Shown here in pieces: positions 38,005 through 47,392 of a DNA stretch of 47,508 nucleotides. The notes beneath the pieces are model-generated. The model made no database searches. It worked only from the letters and a program-made list of their open reading frames with translations, and was not told the DNA's origin. Numbering within the stretch: the stretch's first letter is position 1; each line of letters opens with the position of its first letter. Origin of the DNA: a virus; IMG/VR virus record IMGVR_UViG_3300022916_000029, positions 1-47,508 of that record. One strand, written 5' to 3'. Both the position numbers and the translations under genes were made by a program.

Positions 38005-41000
38005 CTACAGGCTGCTGCGGAGGTGGAACGTCAGGAGGATGTAGAGGAGCGGGAACACCGGGGCGTAGTACGCCTGCACCTCAGCAACCGTCGGGTCGTC
38101 CGAGGCTACGTTGGCCTTGATGTTCTGGTAGGCGCTGATGATCTGGGCGGCCACGAGGGCCTTCATCATCATCGCCAGCCGTCCCTCGATCTGGGACAGG
38201 ATCCCCGGCAGGAACTTGATCCCGATGAAGCCCTCCAGGGTCTGCCTGGACTGGCGCTGCACCTCGTCGGCGATCTGAATGACCGTCGGGATCTTGGTCA
38301 GGATGTTGGCCATGTTGGTCGTCAGCCCGTGGCGTACCCGGAGGTACGGAGGCCGGTCTTCCATGACCGTGACACCCTTGGTTGCCACGATGTTCTGCTG
38401 CACGGCGTCCAGCTTGCGCCCGGTCTGCGTGAAGCCTACGAGGCGGCGTCCCGTCCACGGGGTCGCTACGTCCACGTTGGGGCTCACAACCGAACCCGCC
38501 ATGGCTGCTGCCACGTAGGTCCCGTCGATCAGATACTCCTTGGTGTTGTTGAACTGATCCTGAAGGGTCAGGACAACGATGTCCGGGTACACGATCCGCA
38601 TACGGGTCGAGGCCAGCGTCCTCGCCATGTCCCCGACCTGCTCCGGGGTAGTCCCGGCGCTCACGCCCAAGATGCTCGTCCGCTCGCTGCGGTAGCGCAC
38701 GCTGGACATGATCTCGTTGGAACGCTTGAGGATCTGGTACAGCGAGGTGCTGTCACCCCTGAGCGGGGTGATGATGTCCGGCAGGGCCTGACCTGGCAGG
38801 ACGCCCTCCAGTTCCTCGATGGCGGCCACGTAGCTGGCGAGGCTGGCCTGCTCCGTGCCCTCTTCCTTCTGTACCTGCTTGACCCCTACGAGGACCGCCC
38901 CGTTGAGGATGGCCAGGTAGGCGGCGAGGCTGACCGGGTTGTCCGGCGTGGCCGCACCGTAGGCCGCCTCAATGCTGCTGATCTTCGTGTAGAAGGCCGT
39001 GTCGAAGCTGGGCTTCGTGTAGTTGTAGGTCACGTAGTACAGGTCGCCGATGGCGGGCTCTTGGCCGCCACGCTCGTAGGTCTTGGTCAGGCAGGTGTCG
39101 CCCGCCGTCACGCCGACCGTATTGTCCACCCGCAACTCCGTCCCAGGCAGGGCGTTGTGCGGGATGTTGGCGTCACAGGTGAAGGTCTTCGAGCACTCGA
39201 TGCGGAACGTGGCAGCCGCCGTCGGGTAGCTGATCCAGGGTCCGTTCTGGTTGGTGCTCCAGCCCCTCGGGAGGATGGTGAAGGTGAGGCCCGTCACCTT
39301 GTCCCGGTAGGTCTGACCTACGATGCCGTCCTGTCCGACCCCATTGTTCAGGATCGAGTCATTGGCGGAACCCGAACCGTTGGGGTTCGAGGAAATCACG
39401 AAGTAGCCGTCGAGGGCTGCTTCGCCTACCGCTCCGGCACCCGATACCGCCCCAAGCCCCGTGTCGTACCGCAGGGCGTTGGCGATGCTCTGGAGGGTGT
39501 CCAGAACCTGAACCGTCGAGGAGGCTCCCAGGTTGCCCACGATGACCGGGGCGTCCTGCATGTAGAGGTACTCCTGACCGGCGGCGTCGATCTCCACAGA
39601 GGCCAAGGCCGAGGAACCGAACTCAGTCGCCAGACCGCCAGCCGTGAAGGCCATCCAATCGGCAAAGGAGCCCGTGTTGTAGTTGTTCATCAACGCACTG
39701 GCCACCAGACGGGCCGTCGGCTGCACCCGCAGGCTGACTGCGCCCGCCGTGAACCCGAGGGCGCTGTTGGCGCTCCCAGACCCGATGGTGATGCGGCTGG
39801 CACTATCGAACCGCTGGGAGGTGATGCGGATACCCGCACCTTCCTGCCGGACGAGGAAGTCGGCGAACACTGCGGGGGCGGCCCCGAACGGTGCGCCCGG
39901 TACTGCGGCGATGGCGTCGATGATCTGGTCGAGGATCGAGCCGTTGCTCGTTCCGCTTGCCGGACCCAGAGGCGTCGCCGTGCCCGCAGGGGTGGAGGTG
40001 AAGGCCGCCGTGACCGGCACACCGTCAACCTCAAAGCTGAACTCGTCGTTGGCGGCGATGGTCCCCGTCCCGTCGTACAACGTGACCAGGGGCTCACCGT
40101 TGGCGTCCATACCGCCCGAGAAGCCCATCGTGCCGACCGCCGTGGCGGCCCTGACGGTTGCCACGGCCCCTGCGGTGCCATAGTCGCCCGTGCTGATACC
40201 GGCCTTGGTGTTGCCGCTCTTGACCGTCAGGAGCGTCTGCTCCAGGACGTTGGCGGGGTGCATGCTGCCACCGTAGCCCGGAAGGATCCGGTTACGGAGG
40301 ACCAGGCGGTCGTACAGCTTCTCCGGCCCTGCCACTTCGTAGGTCCGAGCGATGGGGCCGTGGACCAGGGTCGCCTGCCCGCCGAACACTGCGGCTGCCG
40401 TGTCCAAACCGGCCAGGACAGCGAAGTCCTCTGCGGCGGTGTCGGCATCCAGGAACTGAAGGAAGGCAACGCTGTCCGTACCAGCGGGCTGGATGCGGAA
40501 CTCGAGCTTCGCGTCCGAGTTGGCGATGCACTCGATGTTGGCCCCGGCGAACGCTGCGGCGTAACCGGCGATGGCTGCGTCGATCTGCGTCTGCACCTGT
40601 GCGGCCAGGGCGTTCGGGGTGTCGTAGGTGCCCACGGCCAGGGTCAGCGTGCTGACTACCCCCAGACCGGACACGTCGCCCACGTAGCGGAACACAAGCT
40701 GATCGTGGCTGTCGGCTACGATCACGACCGGGCCGTCGAAGGCGGTCGCCGTCTGGAGGCTCGCCCTGTTCTCCGGCCTGAAGATCGTGTAGCGGTCGGT
40801 GATGATGGGCGGTGCGGACCAGTTGGCTGCCATGGTCGCTACGCCGGTGGTGCCGTTGTAGGCGGTGACCGCAAGGGCGTCGCCCGCCGCTGCGGCACCG
40901 AGCCCCATGACCACCCGCCAGCCCACGTAGAAGTCGTCGATGTCAGACCGGGACAGCGGGTCAAGGGTTACGGAAGCCACCCCGCCAGCCGCCGCCGTAC

Positions 41001-43281
41001 CCGTGTGGCCTGCCGCGGCCTCGTTGATGGCGTCAGCGAAGAAGCTGATGTCCACGTTCGTCCCTGTGCCCGTCTTGACCGGCACGTCGGCGTCGTCCGT
41101 GGTGATGATGAACTCTTCGGAGGCCGTCACGTCGTAGGACTGGCCCACGGTGGCTCCGGTGCCACCCGTGTAATCGATCTCGTCGCTCAGGAGGCTGGCG
41201 AAGAAGCCCGAGTTCCAACCCGAGGGGTCCATCAGGTCCAGACCGGCACTGTTCGAGATGTCCGTGCTGCGGATCGCAACCCGGAAGAAGTCCGAGAAGG
41301 CCGGGATGAACTCGTAGGGGCCGTAGCCAGGTACGGTGTACTTGGCGGGACCAGCCACACGGCTACCGAACTCGACCGTGACGATCTCCTCGACCGGGCC
41401 TTCAAAGTCGTCGTCGGACACGCTCTCGTAGCGCAGGTCAGGCTTCAACTCGGAACCGGAGGGGAACTCGATGGTCACACCGATCAGGTTCGCACTCTTC
41501 GTCCCGGTGTTGAAGATGGGCCCGTACACGTCGTTGCTGCCGCTGTCTTCCACCGTGTAGGTGCCAGCCCCGGACAGGCCAGGGTTCAGACAGGTCAGGG
41601 TGTAGGTGTTGTCCGTAAGCTGGTTGTACCAGAACGTGGCGAACACCGTCGCCCCAACCGGCACACTCTCGTCCAGCGTGATGACGTTGCCCTCGACCTT
41701 CGTGACCTGGACGGGACCCCTGTCGAGGGCGTCCTGCATGTCGAAGCCCCAGTAGGCGGTTACCAGGTCGGGGCGGTTGGTCGGAAGGTCGATGCGCCCG
41801 TTGCTGACCGTCTGGAAGAGGCTCGTCCCGAGAGGCGTGTTCCTGCCGTTACCCGTCGTGGGGCTCAAGGGCAGGGTGAACTCCCGGACGCTTGCCACGG
41901 AGGAGCCGCCGCTCGAGGTTGTCACGGCGGTGCAGGCGGACATGAAGGTACGGTTGTCGATCAGGGTGCCGGTCACCTGGGTGTCGTCGAAACGCTCCGA
42001 ACCCACCGAGTTGACGCCGCTCTCGACCGTAACCGCCGTTCCCCAGAGGATCTTGTCGTCCTGGAGAATGAAGTCGCTGGCCTGCGTGTAGCCCGAACCG
42101 TTCGGCACGTCGCCACACTGAGTGACGGCCTGGACATTGATGTTGGCCAGGTAGTCGAACGTGTCCTGCCATGCGTTGAAGTAGTACGTGATGGCCACAG
42201 TCGCCCCGGCGATGGGGGCCTGGGGCAGCGTCACGGCGCGGGTGGAACCGCTGACCGAGGTCGGGATCACCTGCGTGCCGTTGACCTTGACGGTGACGTG
42301 CGAGGGGTCGGTCGTCGTCACACCGCCGTTGGAGCCGTCCACGATGGGACCCTGGAAGGTGTAGAACGTGGCGACCCGTGCGTCCGCCTGCCCCGTCAGG
42401 AGCCCGAGGAGGGCGTTGGCCGTGCCCTCGTTGACTACGATGCTGTGGTCGGCGTTCAGGAGCAGGGCGCTCTGCCCAAAGTTGTTCGTGAACGTCGAGG
42501 CCGTCAGCGTGCCTACGTTGGCCGCCGTGATCGCCGCAGCGATCTGAGCCATCGTGTAGTCACTGCGGGGCGGGATGACGATGGGGTAGGTCGTGGAATC
42601 GATCACCAGGTTCAGGACGTTGTTGTTCTCCACGATCACAGCGCCGTTGGCGTCCGTGATGTCACCGTGGAGGTCAACCGTCTCTGCCACACCGCTGCCA
42701 CCGCCCACGCTACCGGGCGAATCCGTGTCGTAGAGGCCAAACTGGCCCTGCACGACCGCCGGGTCGGGGTCCACCTGATCGGACAGGTCGTCCGTGATCA
42801 AGGTGTCTGTGCGGTTGTAGTAGTACGTGCAGAGGACCTGCTGACCAGGCTGTGGGGCCTGCGCCAACTGCACGATGCCGGTCGCTCCTGTCACTGCCCG
42901 GACAACGATGGGCTCGCCGTCCAGAGTCACGGTCACGTCGCCACGGCTGTTCGTCGTGGTGCCCGTACCGTCACCCGTCACGAGGGGGTAGTGTCGGACC
43001 TGGATCTTGTCCAGAACACCGTTGAAAGCGCCGAGCGTCACCTGTCCCGTCTGGGACACGCTGGCAACGGCCCGTCCGGTCATGTCCTCATCAACCCTGC
43101 GCTGGTCGATGGTGGACGAGGAGCCACGGACCACCTCCAGGTTCTCCTGGACGAGTAGTTCGCTGCCCTCTCCAATGAAGACCGGGATCTTCAGGGTCTG
43201 GAGGGCTGCACCCAGAGGATTCTCGAACTCTGTCTGGGTGAAAACACCAGGGGGAGCATAAGCGGATCCGGGGAAAGCCAT
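38005..43281 (-). CDS. Giant tail sheath protein (1758 aa)
   Basis: ATG at 43281 has GAGAGG upstream. The N-terminus (GSAYAPPGVFTQTEFENP, residues 5-22) and the C-terminal 340 residues (LYQILKRSNEIMSSVRYRSE, PDIVVLTLQDQFNN, GRRLVGFTQTGRKL, ISAYQNIKANVASDDPTV, YYAPVFPLLYILLTFHLRSS) are those of phage tail sheaths, which form the contracting outer tube. Usual sheaths are 400-700 residues; here over 1000 residues are inserted between. The insert has repeated strand units ending TYYYN, TYYFN or TFWYN (about 130-160, 341-372, 526-560) and three module-like stretches (about 240-297, 880-960, 1113-1178) ending near ALLGL, VLAGL and ALGF, related to a module in the wedge and giant proteins. They would decorate the outside of the tail. 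A long open frame on the opposite strand is a composition shadow. Confidence 0.93.
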   Translation of the reverse strand: MAFPGSAYAPPGVFTQTEFENPLGAALQTLKIPVFIGEGSELLVQENLEVVRGSSSTIDQRRVDEDMTGRAVASVSQTGQVTLGAFNGVLDKIQVRHYPLVTGDGTGTTTNSRGDVTVTLDGEPIVVRAVTGATGIVQLAQAPQPGQQVLCTYYYNRTDTLITDDLSDQVDPDPAVVQGQFGLYDTDSPGSVGGGSGVAETVDLHGDITDANGAVIVENNNVLNLVIDSTTYPIVIPPRSDYTMAQIAAAITAANVGTLTASTFTNNFGQSALLLNADHSIVVNEGTANALLGLLTGQADARVATFYTFQGPIVDGSNGGVTTTDPSHVTVKVNGTQVIPTSVSGSTRAVTLPQAPIAGATVAITYYFNAWQDTFDYLANINVQAVTQCGDVPNGSGYTQASDFILQDDKILWGTAVTVESGVNSVGSERFDDTQVTGTLIDNRTFMSACTAVTTSSGGSSVASVREFTLPLSPTTGNGRNTPLGTSLFQTVSNGRIDLPTNRPDLVTAYWGFDMQDALDRGPVQVTKVEGNVITLDESVPVGATVFATFWYNQLTDNTYTLTCLNPGLSGAGTYTVEDSGSNDVYGPIFNTGTKSANLIGVTIEFPSGSELKPDLRYESVSDDDFEGPVEEIVTVEFGSRVAGPAKYTVPGYGPYEFIPAFSDFFRVAIRSTDISNSAGLDLMDPSGWNSGFFASLLSDEIDYTGGTGATVGQSYDVTASEEFIITTDDADVPVKTGTGTNVDISFFADAINEAAAGHTGTAAAGGVASVTLDPLSRSDIDDFYVGWRVVMGLGAAAAGDALAVTAYNGTTGVATMAANWSAPPIITDRYTIFRPENRASLQTATAFDGPVVIVADSHDQLVFRYVGDVSGLGVVSTLTLAVGTYDTPNALAAQVQTQIDAAIAGYAAAFAGANIECIANSDAKLEFRIQPAGTDSVAFLQFLDADTAAEDFAVLAGLDTAAAVFGGQATLVHGPIARTYEVAGPEKLYDRLVLRNRILPGYGGSMHPANVLEQTLLTVKSGNTKAGISTGDYGTAGAVATVRAATAVGTMGFSGGMDANGEPLVTLYDGTGTIAANDEFSFEVDGVPVTAAFTSTPAGTATPLGPASGTSNGSILDQIIDAIAAVPGAPFGAAPAVFADFLVRQEGAGIRITSQRFDSASRITIGSGSANSALGFTAGAVSLRVQPTARLVASALMNNYNTGSFADWMAFTAGGLATEFGSSALASVEIDAAGQEYLYMQDAPVIVGNLGASSTVQVLDTLQSIANALRYDTGLGAVSGAGAVGEAALDGYFVISSNPNGSGSANDSILNNGVGQDGIVGQTYRDKVTGLTFTILPRGWSTNQNGPWISYPTAAATFRIECSKTFTCDANIPHNALPGTELRVDNTVGVTAGDTCLTKTYERGGQEPAIGDLYYVTYNYTKPSFDTAFYTKISSIEAAYGAATPDNPVSLAAYLAILNGAVLVGVKQVQKEEGTEQASLASYVAAIEELEGVLPGQALPDIITPLRGDSTSLYQILKRSNEIMSSVRYRSERTSILGVSAGTTPEQVGDMARTLASTRMRIVYPDIVVLTLQDQFNNTKEYLIDGTYVAAAMAGSVVSPNVDVATPWTGRRLVGFTQTGRKLDAVQQNIVATKGVTVMEDRPPYLRVRHGLTTNMANILTKIPTVIQIADEVQRQSRQTLEGFIGIKFLPGILSQIEGRLAMMMKALVAAQIISAYQNIKANVASDDPTVAEVQAYYAPVFPLLYILLTFHLRSSL

Positions 43282-43438
43282 GTAGCACCTCTCTTCAAGC
43301 CGCGGGAGCGGGTTCCAGTTCAACCACCGTGTCCGTTGGTTTCTCAGTCCACATTGACCAGCCCTCGAAGGGGCGGAACGTCAGCCCAAGTAAGTGGTCC
43401 GTCTGTCGTCCCGTCTGTCTAGCCCGTGCGTACCCGGG
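43282..43438. other. Intergenic leader upstream of the tail sheath gene
   Basis: 157 bases with no gene. It contains copy B of the repeated motif and a small hairpin (plus strand 43361-43374, GCCC ... GGGC). As the sheath must be made in large amounts, a promoter here is likely, but standard -35/-10 boxes are not clear. Confidence 0.5.
43397..43425 (-). promoter_or_regulatory. Repeated intergenic motif, copy B (upstream of tail sheath)
   Basis: Contains GTCCCGTCTGTCT (43408-43420), identical to 35652-35664, preceded by a second CCGTCTGTC unit. It lies 116-144 bases before the sheath ATG. Being found in two of the few non-coding gaps, both ahead of virion genes, argues for a promoter or regulator site. 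Function not proven. Confidence 0.42.
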
Positions 43439-43968: not shown

Positions 43969-45168
43969 TCACCGGATGACCTCGTAGGTGTAGGACCTAT
44001 CGCTGAAGAACGGATCACCGAACCGTTGCAGCCCCAAGTTCTCCACCATGCGGAGGTTATTGTTGAACGAGGCCACCTGGTCGTCCGTCATGGCGGCCAC
44101 GGCCTGTGATTGCTCTAGTGTCATGAAGGAGGCTTGGCGGAGGAAGATGTTGAGGGGAACGTAGATCTCCCAGTTGGTCCGCACCGTCAGACTGAAGGTC
44201 GAGTTGTAGAAGTAGTCATCGGCGTTGTCGTCGTAGATCTCCTCCGACTCTCCGCCCAAGGACAGTTCCGTCATCTCCAGGCCTTCTGACGACATGGCAG
44301 CCCGTAGGACCCCCCACAGGTAGATCACGGTCATATCAGCGATCTGCTGCTGTGCGTATACGTCCCGGGACATCACCTCAAAGTCGAGGGTCAACTCCCA
44401 CTGGCCACCGTAAGCCAAACAGGCGGGCCGCCTCATGTCCTGAATGACCACCGCCAACCTGTCCCCCACCTCGCTCCGTTCCCCGAACGCCAGGACGACG
44501 CCAGGGATGGCGGTGTTGTTGGCGAACATAGGGTGGAACTCATGAGGGCCTGTAGAGGCCGCAGCGTGCCTGTAGTCGGCGGTCAACGTCCGGCCACCTG
44601 TCAGGGCCTGCGCCAGGATGATCTCCCCTGTAGGCTTGCCTGCGGGGTCTAACGTCAGCGTGTAGTTCGTGCCCTCGACCAACTGATAGGCGGCGGGCAT
44701 CTCAAACAGGCGGAGGGTGCCTGTCAGGGGCGCATTCTGGAGTTGCCCCGTGATGGTGTCGACCATCGTTACGGGTTCGGCGTACACGTCCAGGAGCGGG
44801 TCCACGTAGAACTCGTTGGCCCCTGTGATCTCCATGAAGTAGACGCCAGGGAGGGACGGGAACAGGCCGCCGTTCTTCTGAATGGCCAGGGAGTCCTCAC
44901 GAACCCACTCAACTGAGAGGCCCGCATAGGCCCCGACCTTGGCCAGGTACGGGTAGGCGTTGATGACGCCGATGTAGTTGTCCGCTGACAGGTCCACCCT
45001 GTTGCCGCCGGACGTCTTGACGATGATCCCGTACTGAGGACGCTCCCGGAAGGAGTACTTCCCCTGGATGTGATCGACGATGTCCCGGTACTTGGGGTGA
45101 CTGGCCCAGAAGCGGCGCATCTCAAGGACGAACCGCCTTTTCATCGCCTCGGTGAGGGCAAAATACAT
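43969..45168 (-). CDS. Probable neck or tail-completion protein (399 aa)
   Basis: ATG at 45168 overlaps the stop of the endonuclease gene (TGATG). A longer frame from TTG at 45204 reads into the endonuclease gene and is not favoured. The N-terminus MYFALTEAMKRRFVLEMRRF is a helix, then IVDHIQGKYSFRERPQYGII and beta-rich sequence (LPGVYFMEITGANEFYVDPL, NYTLTLDPAGKPTGEIIL), and a C-terminal part with VYAQQQIADMTVIYLWGVLR. No exact family was recognised; place just before the sheath suggests a tail terminator, neck or sheath-attachment protein. Its first eight codons have a counterpart at 45993-46016 on the far side of the endonuclease, where a GTG with a much better ribosome site stands. So this gene probably began there before the insertion. 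Confidence 0.65.
   Translation of the reverse strand: MYFALTEAMKRRFVLEMRRFWASHPKYRDIVDHIQGKYSFRERPQYGIIVKTSGGNRVDLSADNYIGVINAYPYLAKVGAYAGLSVEWVREDSLAIQKNGGLFPSLPGVYFMEITGANEFYVDPLLDVYAEPVTMVDTITGQLQNAPLTGTLRLFEMPAAYQLVEGTNYTLTLDPAGKPTGEIILAQALTGGRTLTADYRHAAASTGPHEFHPMFANNTAIPGVVLAFGERSEVGDRLAVVIQDMRRPACLAYGGQWELTLDFEVMSRDVYAQQQIADMTVIYLWGVLRAAMSSEGLEMTELSLGGESEEIYDDNADDYFYNSTFSLTVRTNWEIYVPLNIFLRQASFMTLEQSQAVAAMTDDQVASFNNNLRMVENLGLQRFGDPFFSDRSYTYEVIR
45145..45168 (-). repeat. Restored-start copy 1: first eight codons of the neck gene (MYFALTEA)
   Basis: Aligns codon for codon with 45993-46016 (VYFQLTEA, GTG start). Six of the seven residues after the start codon are identical (the exception is Q/A), while 7 of 24 bases differ. 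It now serves as the working start of the neck gene just after the endonuclease stop. Confidence 0.72.
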
Positions 45169-45938
45169 CAGGCAACCCCATAGGAGAAGAGCCGCCAGCC
45201 CCAACCTTGTTGTTGTGCAAAGGTTTCTCCAGCACGCAACTTCACTGCAATCCGACCGCTACCTTGAGCATCCCGTTCCACTATCTGTAAGGGCTTGATC
45301 TCCTCCAATACCTTGCTCCCATCCACGTACTCGACCAAAACATCCGGGATGTACCGATGGGTACTACCGTCCCACAAGTAAGGGATGGAACAAGGCTGCA
45401 CCGAGTAACAGGCAACGCAAGGATCTGCATCAAACTCCTTGTACCGCCGAAGCTCCCAACCCGACATGTAATAAACCCGGCCTGCTTTCGGGGACTGGTA
45501 GTACCCCCTTGAATAGTAGCGCCCGGACTGGATCATTTTTGTCCGCACAATAGAACAACGTTCCCGAACTTCGGGCCTTCGCATGGCATCAGCCACGGCC
45601 TTCCTTTGCCGAACCCTTCGGGGATCATCGTAAGGAACCCCTACTGTCCATGCACACACCCGGGCTAGTGCAGCCCTCTTCTTGGCCGCTGTCTCAGGGG
45701 AATCCTTACGCCCGAGATGCGCCGCAGAAATCTTAGCCTTAGTGGCCTCATTCCAGGAACGTCCAGCCCGTGCTTCCGACTTGGTCCGCCAGCGAAGCCC
45801 ACAGGCTCGAAAAGAAGCCCTCACGACGCTATATGGAACACCCCGCATCTCAGCAATCCGAGGCATCGAGAACTTCTGGTCAAAATACAGGTCTAACAGA
45901 ACCTCTTTTGTGAGCAGTGCATGCTTGCGGGGCGGCAT
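45168..45938 (-). CDS. Homing endonuclease: HTH, NUMOD3-like repeat, PD-(D/E)XK nuclease (256 aa)
   Basis: ATG at 45938 is chosen for its GGAGG site five bases upstream. Residues 7-52 look like a helix-turn-helix (FSMPRIAEMRGVPYSVVRAS). Residues 61-91 match the NUMOD3 DNA-binding repeat of phage homing enzymes (SWNEATKAKISAAHLGRKDS). The C-terminal domain about 140-256 is a PD-(D/E)XK nuclease of TnsA-like or EDxHD-like look: Glu162 in SGWELRRYKEF, IPY at 185-187, RYIPDVLVEY with Asp199, LEEIKP with Glu213 and Lys215, then WGWRLFSYG. Hand-counted G+C is 53% over 45301-45360, lower than the flanks. It lies between the 57-residue gene and the neck gene, both ends overlapping or abutting coding sequence. 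There is no room for a group I intron core, so it is a free-standing insertion. Confidence 0.86.
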   Translation of the reverse strand: MPPRKHALLTKEVLLDLYFDQKFSMPRIAEMRGVPYSVVRASFRACGLRWRTKSEARAGRSWNEATKAKISAAHLGRKDSPETAAKKRAALARVCAWTVGVPYDDPRRVRQRKAVADAMRRPEVRERCSIVRTKMIQSGRYYSRGYYQSPKAGRVYYMSGWELRRYKEFDADPCVACYSVQPCSIPYLWDGSTHRYIPDVLVEYVDGSKVLEEIKPLQIVERDAQGSGRIAVKLRAGETFAQQQGWGWRLFSYGVA

Positions 45939-45942
45939 AAGA

Positions 45943-45972
45943 GCCTCCGGTGTATCTCCAGCTAACGGAAGG
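45943..45972 (-). promoter_or_regulatory. Hairpin that could hide the endonuclease ribosome site
   Basis: In the minus-strand RNA, CCTTCCG (45972-45966) can pair with CGGAGG (45949-45944), with one bulged base and a 16-base loop. This covers the whole Shine-Dalgarno sequence of the endonuclease gene. Homing-enzyme genes in T4-like phages are often held down in this way. A second small hairpin, CCCG-GTAA-CGGG (a GNRA-type loop), lies just upstream at 45979-45990. Confidence 0.4.
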
Positions 45973-45992
45973 TATAGCCCCGTTACCGGGTT

Positions 45993-46016
45993 CGCCTCTG
46001 TCAGTTGGAAATACAC
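45993..46016 (-). repeat. Restored-start copy 2: orphan gene start (GTG, VYFQLTEA)
   Basis: GTG at 46016 is preceded by AGGGAGAAGCC, a strong ribosome site, and reads in frame into the endonuclease. The eight codons match the neck gene start at 45145-45168. This looks like the original start of the neck gene, now cut off by the inserted endonuclease. If used, it would make an extended endonuclease of 282 residues. Confidence 0.68.
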
Positions 46017-46174
46017 GGCTTCTCCCTGTCCCCGTGGAACGCCTGGAAATCCTGTTCCATCTCTTCCGTCCACCTCGCCTTCGGGGGCGGCTTGGGCGGG
46101 TTCATCTTGTCCCCGTGGAACAACTCCAGGTCTCTCAGGGCGGCTTCGGGGTCGTAGAAGGGGTTGCTGCTCAT
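46001..46174 (-). CDS. Small protein with FHGD repeat (57 aa)
   Basis: ATG at 46174 overlaps the stop of the 64-residue gene (TGATG). The protein starts MSSNPFYDPEAALRDLE and has two units, LELFHGDK and FQAFHGDR, encoded by an identical 14-base sequence 81 bases apart, with a Pro/Lys linker (MNPPKPPPKARW) between. The end (EKPCISN) overlaps the orphan GTG start by 16 bases, as expected if this gene originally overlapped the neck gene. No family recognised. It is too short for certainty, but the coupled start and coding-like codon use support it. Confidence 0.6.
   Translation of the reverse strand: MSSNPFYDPEAALRDLELFHGDKMNPPKPPPKARWTEEMEQDFQAFHGDREKPCISN
46027..46040 (-). repeat. 14-base direct repeat, copy 1
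   Basis: TGTCCCCGTGGAAC (plus strand) is identical to 46108-46121. Both copies encode the FHGD part of the 57-residue protein, in the same frame. Confidence 0.6.
46108..46121 (-). repeat. 14-base direct repeat, copy 2
   Basis: Partner of 46027-46040, 81 bases apart (27 codons), consistent with an internal duplication in the 57-residue gene. Confidence 0.6.
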
Positions 46175-46368
46175 CAGGTCACTCCGTCCAAGGCGTCGAC
46201 CACGTCCTGCGCCGTGCCCTGCCCGTCTAGGGCCAGTTCGAAGGCTTCTACGACCTTGGGGGTCAGTCCAAGGTGGAAACGCAAGGTGTCCGCCTTGGCC
46301 TTGGGCTCAAGGTCTATCTGCCACAGTTCCATGATGGCGTGCCGGAGTTCCTCGTGGGTGGTGCTCAT
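46174..46368 (-). CDS. Small acidic helical protein (64 aa)
   Basis: ATG at 46368 lies one base after the stop of the actin-like gene, with AGGAGG inside that gene's last codons. The sequence is helical and acidic (EELRHAIMELWQIDLEPKAK, TPKVVEAFELALDGQGTAQD) with no metal, membrane or ribbon-helix-helix pattern that I can see. Tight coupling to the actin-like ATPase makes a partner or adaptor role for it possible, but it lacks an obvious ParR-like DNA-binding fold. Family unknown. Confidence 0.65.
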   Translation of the reverse strand: MSTTHEELRHAIMELWQIDLEPKAKADTLRFHLGLTPKVVEAFELALDGQGTAQDVVDALDGVT

Positions 46369-46369
46369 C

Positions 46370-47392
46370 TCAGTCCTCCTCGTGTTCCTGCATCGCCTGG
46401 ATGAGCAGACCGTGGGCCACAGCGTTCAAGGGCTCGCCCGCCTGTCGGATCTCACTGACCTCGATGGGGAACCGCTTGCGCCGCTCATTGAAGACCTTGG
46501 TGAAGAACTCCATGAACCCACCAGCGAGGCTCGTCCCGCCGGACACGATCACGGGGATCGCACGGGGCAGGTCGAACTTGCCCTCAATGGACTTGAACCG
46601 GAGGCCGATCTGGTCCAGCACGTAGTCGATGTGGGCCCGGTAGTAGTGGGCGATGGCCTCTTCCAGCCTGTCCTGCGGCTTGGTCAGGTCGATCCCCTTC
46701 TCCTTGGCCGCACAGGCACGGGCCTGCGTCGCTCCTACGGACTTGGCGGCCCCACGGTCGATCCAGTCACCGCCACGGGCCACAGAGAAGATCAGGCCCT
46801 CGATGGTATTGATCGCCAGGGCGACGTTGGTCATGCCGCTCCCGAACGAAAGGGCCACGCCGGAGAACCCTTCCTTCGCCGTCTCGGCGAAGATGATCCC
46901 CATGCCTTCGTTGGCCGGGAAGGGCTTGTACCCGCACTCCGTCACGATGCGGCGGAACACCTCCCGGTGATAGATGATGTCCCTGTCCGGCTGGTCGATG
47001 GGCTCCGCAGGGACAGAGTAGTAGCACACCTCGTCCGGCACGGCAGGAGGTCCCAGGACCTCCTTGATGAGAAGGCCCAGCACGTCCAGGCTCTCGGACT
47101 CTGTCGCCGACACGATGCCAGCGGACAAAGGCCGACGGGCCTCCTGTCCGAACACGTTGGCCAGTTCCAAAGCAGCGTCGCCGAGGATCAGCACGTCGTC
47201 CTCACGCTCTACGAAGCTGGTGGCGGAGAGCTTGAGCATCTTCTTCGCCGACGTGGGCAGGTCCAGGAACACGTCCCGCATCCGCTTGGTCGTGATGCCC
47301 TTGTCGCCTCTGCGGGCGGACACGAGGTTCATGGTGCCGATGTCCAGGCCGATGCCCGGAATCACCGCTGTCTTCTTGGTATCGTCGCTCAT
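46370..47392 (-). CDS. Actin/Hsp70-fold ATPase (ParM/MreB/FtsA-like), 340 aa
   Basis: The nucleotide-binding signature of the actin superfamily is complete: phosphate-1 loop GIGLDIGTMNLVSA at 13-26 (Asp17, Gly19, Thr20), connect-1-like NEGMGIIFAE at 161-170, phosphate-2 loop ALSFGSGMTNVAL at 180-192, and adenosine loop IPVIVSGGTSLAGGF at 279-293. Length fits ParM or MreB (about 320-350). Such proteins polymerise to move or position DNA or build a scaffold; some act as chaperone-like ATPases. No membrane-binding helix is evident at either end; the C-terminus is acidic (QAMQEHEED). ATG at 47392 has AAGGAG upstream and overlaps the previous stop (ATGA). Presence at the head of a virion gene block is unusual and could mean DNA positioning during late infection or a role in assembly. 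Which subfamily is uncertain. Confidence 0.86.
   Translation of the reverse strand: MSDDTKKTAVIPGIGLDIGTMNLVSARRGDKGITTKRMRDVFLDLPTSAKKMLKLSATSFVEREDDVLILGDAALELANVFGQEARRPLSAGIVSATESESLDVLGLLIKEVLGPPAVPDEVCYYSVPAEPIDQPDRDIIYHREVFRRIVTECGYKPFPANEGMGIIFAETAKEGFSGVALSFGSGMTNVALAINTIEGLIFSVARGGDWIDRGAAKSVGATQARACAAKEKGIDLTKPQDRLEEAIAHYYRAHIDYVLDQIGLRFKSIEGKFDLPRAIPVIVSGGTSLAGGFMEFFTKVFNERRKRFPIEVSEIRQAGEPLNAVAHGLLIQAMQEHEED

Follow-up and report, generated by a model that had tools for sequence, protein, structure and literature searches.

Organization of the neck gene locus

The window examined here, by which we mean the whole stretch of viral DNA that was analysed, spans 47,508 nt (positions 1 to 47,508 of IMG/VR record IMGVR_UViG_3300022916_000029) and carries on its minus strand a neck gene (43969-45168) that by family alignment encodes 399 amino acids. 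Its identity is given by fold, the protein matching the neck protein of phage 812 in a Foldseek search (E 2.3e-7) and, more weakly, the neck chains of E217 and Pa193. Upstream on the same strand lies a gene for a TnsA-like PD-(D/E)XK endonuclease of 256 amino acids (45168-45938), flanked in direct orientation by two copies of the neck gene start. The upstream copy, U (46016-45993; GTGTATTTCCAACTGACAGAGGCG), opens with GTG and reads VYFQLTEA; it is probably the native start, severed from its gene by the insert. The downstream copy, D (45168-45145; ATGTATTTTGCCCTCACCGAGGCG), opens with ATG and reads MYFALTEA, and appears to be a replacement supplied by the cassette, which would make the neck gene a hybrid of D and the native gene body. 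The pairing of these starts, first proposed in the initial annotation, is confirmed, with 7 base differences between the two 24-base copies and agreement in six of the seven residues after the start codon. The same sequence is present in three other assemblies of the same phage with 0, 0, and 2 differences, so the double start is not an assembly error. Expressed as a fraction of the maximum BLOSUM score, the U peptide scores 0.86, whereas none of 200 Markov-shuffled versions of the upstream 2 kb exceeded 0.69.

Two details need small adjustments. Members of the endonuclease family share the start at position 45938 (ATG); U, together with the 54-base linker that follows it (45939-45992, minus strand) and is in frame with both U and the endonuclease, thus forms a leader that is read in frame into the enzyme. 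The linker carries a GGAGG resembling a ribosome site ahead of the endonuclease ATG. At the other end, the stop codon of the endonuclease and the ATG of D run into each other in the sequence TGATG, and such close or overlapping placement of D and the stop suggests coupled translation. A gene for a 57-residue protein (46001-46174, minus strand) lies upstream of U and shares 16 bases with it, its stop codon among them. Further upstream is an actin-like gene of the Volactin family (46370-47392, minus strand; Pfam PF25216, 4.1e-72), which adjoins the neck gene in most close relatives and served as a marker for locating them. Elsewhere in the window, a 1772-residue open reading frame (38005-43323) matches phage tail sheath proteins only over its last 340 residues, the remainder being a very large insertion or extension.

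The endonuclease

The enzyme combines a helix-turn-helix-like N-terminus with a C-terminal TnsA-like PD-(D/E)XK domain. This nuclease domain is recognized by Pfam PF08722 in all seven family members (E 5.6e-13), and the AlphaFold model matches Tn7 TnsA (1t0f; Foldseek, E 9.7e-6). The active-site motif is intact, with E162, D199, and the ExK at 213-215 invariant in the family. A NUMOD3 motif is detected at 1.6e-4 in the best member and at E values up to 1 in three of the seven, and is weak in the enzyme of the window. Distant relatives occur in LR745208 (L070), LR756511 (L071), and L069, where L denotes a locus in our collection; the relative in L070 (LR745208.1, 2629-4475) lies directly before, and overlaps, an open reading frame with an intein-like C-terminus. 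Plasmid matches to the nuclease domain were set aside as generic TnsA-like proteins.

The surroundings of the endonuclease gene resemble neither a spliced element nor a transposon. No Rfam intron match was found at 44500-46700, and beyond the endonuclease stop the neck gene opens with a start codon of its own, which is not the layout of a self-splicing group I intron or an intein. The endonuclease is the only gene of the insert and the gene start the only repeat noted, so that the TnsB-type transposase and element ends of a transposon are lacking.

Neck genes in related phages

Searches with the neck, actin-like, and endonuclease proteins yielded 72 distinct neck loci on contigs of up to 536 kb; a scan of a genome collection found two neck loci, both lacking the endonuclease. 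An N-terminus of the YF.LTEA type is common to all 72 neck proteins and can therefore be taken as the true start of the family. The endonuclease lies directly upstream of the neck gene in seven lineages (the window, L059, L061, L110, L151, L144, and L152), and in five of these both U and D are present, at a distance of 821-872 bases. A second peptide copy is missing from L144 and L152, where the endonuclease begins at the native start codon itself. Among the 65 loci without a full endonuclease, a few of which lie on contigs that are short upstream, none has a recognizable second start within 2 kb; the best score there, 0.69 in L021, comes from an unrelated-looking peptide 1.7 kb away and is chance-like. 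Peptide scores in four of the five double-start lineages are 0.83-1.00. In L151 the score is just 0.67, as U and D differ in two residues, and U is identified by an empty relative. The two observations that were to refute the original proposal, endonuclease-free relatives with both copies and a neck family lacking the YF.LTEA N-terminus, are thus not encountered in this collection.

The proposal had also predicted an uninterrupted allele joining the 57-residue gene directly to the neck gene. Empty alleles do exist in relatives, but none with that junction was found in the lineage of the window, whose closest relative without the insert (L005, 71%) carries a different gene in place of the 57-residue gene.

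Filled and empty alleles

The clearest view of the insertion is provided by L151 and L155, which are filled, and L157, which is empty. The left flank is 99.8% identical over 2151 bp and the right flank 99.7% over 4109 bp, so that L151 and L157 differ essentially by the insert alone. L151 tracks L157 across the start and as far as base 23 of the gene, diverges for 872 bp, and rejoins it at codon 10; the 872-bp insert follows GTGTATTTTCACCTGACAGAAGC, ends in ATGTACTTTTTTCTGACCGAAGGGGTG, and is succeeded by the shared CGGCGGAGG. The last 27 bases of the insert are themselves a gene start, with 17 of 27 bases identical to the native one and 10 differing. In L151, then, U is native, D is foreign, and the gene is a hybrid.

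Two more distant pairs agree with this. L110 and L105 share flanks of 85% and 90% identity, with left homology extending 21 bases into the gene and resuming at D, and L144 and L148 share flanks of 81% and 79%, with left homology stopping at the native GTG, which has been taken over by the endonuclease. The three pairs reveal a presence/absence polymorphism at one fixed site, within which the insertion point ranges from codon 1 to codon 8. They also bear out the earlier suggestion that the cassette severed the native start and supplied a diverged one, and the assignment of the upstream copy as the original start is upheld base by base by L151 and L157.

Simple comparison with the nearest empty relative is a poorer guide. 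In the window, U matches the start of L005 at 17 of 21 bases and D at 13 of 21, whereas in L059 the order is reversed (D 16 of 21, U 12 of 21) and in L110 the two copies match about equally well (17 and 16); in the latter two, native and foreign thus cannot be separated by base identity alone. For the window, the case for U as the native start is drawn mainly from the matched pairs of relatives.

Mobility and decay of the cassette

The endonuclease and neck trees conflict, which indicates that the cassette moves between lineages. In the neck tree L110 groups with L105 and lies near L059, and a grouping of L061 with L110 is rejected (AU p 5e-132); in the endonuclease tree L110 and L061 group together (95/93), and a grouping of L059 with L110 is rejected (p 0.025). 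Between L151 and L157, three of the five differences in the left flank form one cluster 89-104 bases from the insert, which fits co-conversion, although the evidence is thin.

D itself travels with the enzyme. The endonuclease reading frame ends inside D in L061, L110, and L151, making D physically part of the cassette. D also outlives the enzyme, since up to four loci retain only an endonuclease remnant directly before it. In L076 a C-terminal remnant of 60 residues (72% identity, E 1e-27) abuts D, in L142 the remnant carries an internal deletion joining both ends (E 9e-10), and in L102 only 17 residues persist (E 1e-5); the match before D in L111 is weak (E 0.06). A scan for excess start identity among the neck loci gave no clear signal. 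The starts of L051, which lacks the endonuclease, and L102, which has a remnant, share 23 of 24 bases and were considered as a shared cassette-derived start, but with thousands of pairs compared such a match is no more than suggestive, and the candidate was not retained.

A probable homing cassette at the start of the neck gene

We consider it very probable that these elements are a free-standing homing cassette that targets the first codons of the neck gene in large phages. The endonuclease would cut alleles that lack the cassette, probably near codons 1-10, and repair from a cassette-bearing genome would then bring in both the endonuclease and the foreign first 8-9 codons. The native ribosome site and U would remain in front, now serving the endonuclease. 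This is seen in different forms: the enzyme lies behind the native ribosome site by way of an in-frame leader in the window, L110, and L151, follows a short coupled open reading frame in L061 and L059, and takes over the start codon directly in L144 and L152. The neck protein would be made from the supplied D, giving a working hybrid gene, and on decay of the endonuclease D would persist as the working start. D is presumably resistant to the enzyme, as is to be expected, since a start left unaltered in front of the gene body would recreate the target. That its divergence protects the cassette from re-cutting or recombination is a guess.

It had been suggested that D is a recoded version of U, and active recoding under selection, allowing D to escape both cutting and recombination with U, would add to homing rather than compete with it. 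L061 retains all seven residues with six of seven codons changed, and D differs from the native start in all three filled/empty pairs. Yet special recoding is not borne out by codon usage. U and D share 5-7 of 7 residues, and of the 30 residues so shared 14 have identical codons, a rate not below the 40% found for unrelated alleles with similar residues, so that D looks like the start of another lineage. The D of L151 alters residues as well as codons, and foreign origin alone accounts for the divergence. We therefore regard active recoding as rather unlikely.

Far less probable is the reverse assignment, in which D would be the native copy and U, with its ribosome site, would have arrived with the cassette as the cassette's own translation start. 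D is presumably the start in use, a fair ribosome site precedes it in L061 and L076, and in L059 the nearest empty relative is closer to D than to U. For L151, however, this reading is refuted, as the left flank and U equal L157 through base 23 of the gene but D departs from it at 10 of 27 bases, and in the L110/L105 and L144/L148 pairs the left junction falls at the native start or within it. More improbable still is a transposition-like insertion whose TnsA-type staggered cut duplicated the target site, the two copies then drifting apart. The nuclease is of the TnsA type and direct repeats stand at both ends, but with D differing at 10 of 27 bases between flanks that differ by 0.3%, the copies of L151 cannot have drifted apart since its insertion; moreover, a transposase gene is lacking from the insert, and the site of insertion is not constant, ranging from codon 1 to codon 8. 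Finally, that an ordinary nuclease gene or an intron-borne endonuclease sits beside a chance resemblance of eight residues can be dismissed: the repeat is short, but chance is excluded by the shuffles and because the double start recurs in five lineages, always together with the endonuclease; against an intron stand the lack of any Rfam match at 44500-46700 and a neck gene whose own start follows the endonuclease stop.

Relation to known mobile elements

The nearest precedent to the homing cassette lies in fungal mitochondria, where mobile open reading frames (mORFs) bring a foreign C-terminal end to a gene and leave the native end behind, as in atp6 of Allomyces macrogynus, atp6, atp9, cox2, and nad3 of Glomus sp., atp9 of Rhizopus, and cox2 of Mortierella (PMC3630166). 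As in those systems, a free-standing endonuclease near the end of an essential gene carries a diverged copy of that end from another lineage, the native copy stays, and the gene becomes a hybrid. Unlike the mORFs, which replace the 3′ end and encode LAGLIDADG or GIY-YIG enzymes, the phage cassette replaces the 5′ end and start codon, passes the native ribosome site to the endonuclease, and uses a TnsA-like PD-(D/E)XK enzyme. The initial annotation named no class of homing cassette defined by this arrangement; a precedent at the 3′ end of genes does exist (PMC3630166).

Among phage elements, the free-standing endonucleases of T4 (seg and mob genes) are described as intergenic, sparing coding sequence (PMC2988022). 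They too are selfish nuclease genes beside conserved phage genes, and they move by break repair with co-conversion of the flanks, as the cassette would; the cassette differs in lying within coding sequence and replacing the gene start. With Tn7 TnsA (1t0f, 1f1z) the enzyme shares its nuclease fold and catalytic layout, but its partner transposase is absent from the insert and the domain is joined to putative DNA-binding modules of the homing type. Endonucleases of group I introns and inteins likewise reside in essential genes that stay functional, and interrupted genes in phages are described in a survey of their endonucleases as rescued by introns or inteins (PMC10448857); here no splicing element was detected and a spare start would rescue the gene instead.

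We found no account of a start-replacing cassette, in its 5′ version or in a phage, in the open-licence literature. It is possible, if somewhat short of an even chance, that these elements form a class of homing cassette in its own right, one that propagates by exchanging the start of an essential gene. Such a cassette would take the native ribosome site for its own enzyme, carry a portable start that resists the enzyme and rescues the host gene, and leave a lasting scar after loss of the enzyme, with chimeric starts, possibly including rare ATT or ATC codons, across a large phage group. The cassette illustrates how a selfish endonuclease can inhabit an essential gene with neither intron nor intein by carrying a spare gene start. 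A mechanism so far described in fungal mitochondria is thereby extended to the 5′ end of a gene and to phages. The matched filled and empty phages make the cut site, self-protection, and hybrid-gene steps directly testable. Gene starts of related phages may also be scars of invasion, which affects start-site annotation and N-terminal comparisons.

Start codons and upstream motifs of the neck loci

Thirteen of the 72 neck genes apparently start with ATT or ATC (L005, L027, L030, L061, L076, L084, L110, L112, L137, L142, L149, L152, and L160), several of which follow a normally spaced ribosome site and have no ATG, GTG, or TTG close by. These starts are commoner beside an endonuclease or its remnant (5 of 11, against 8 of 61; Fisher p 0.02, kinship ignored). 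L061, one of these phages, carries an apparent intein as well as the neck cassette: its actin-like Volactin gene (L061, 1380-3509; an open reading frame of 709 amino acids) is interrupted by the intein, with a LAGLIDADG-type endonuclease. Of the 61 empty neck genes, 18 have the motif CCTAT in the 80 bases that precede them, where about 3.6 are expected; it lies mostly near -30 and is possibly a late promoter, and a copy is also found in the linkers between U and the endonuclease of L059, L110, and L151.
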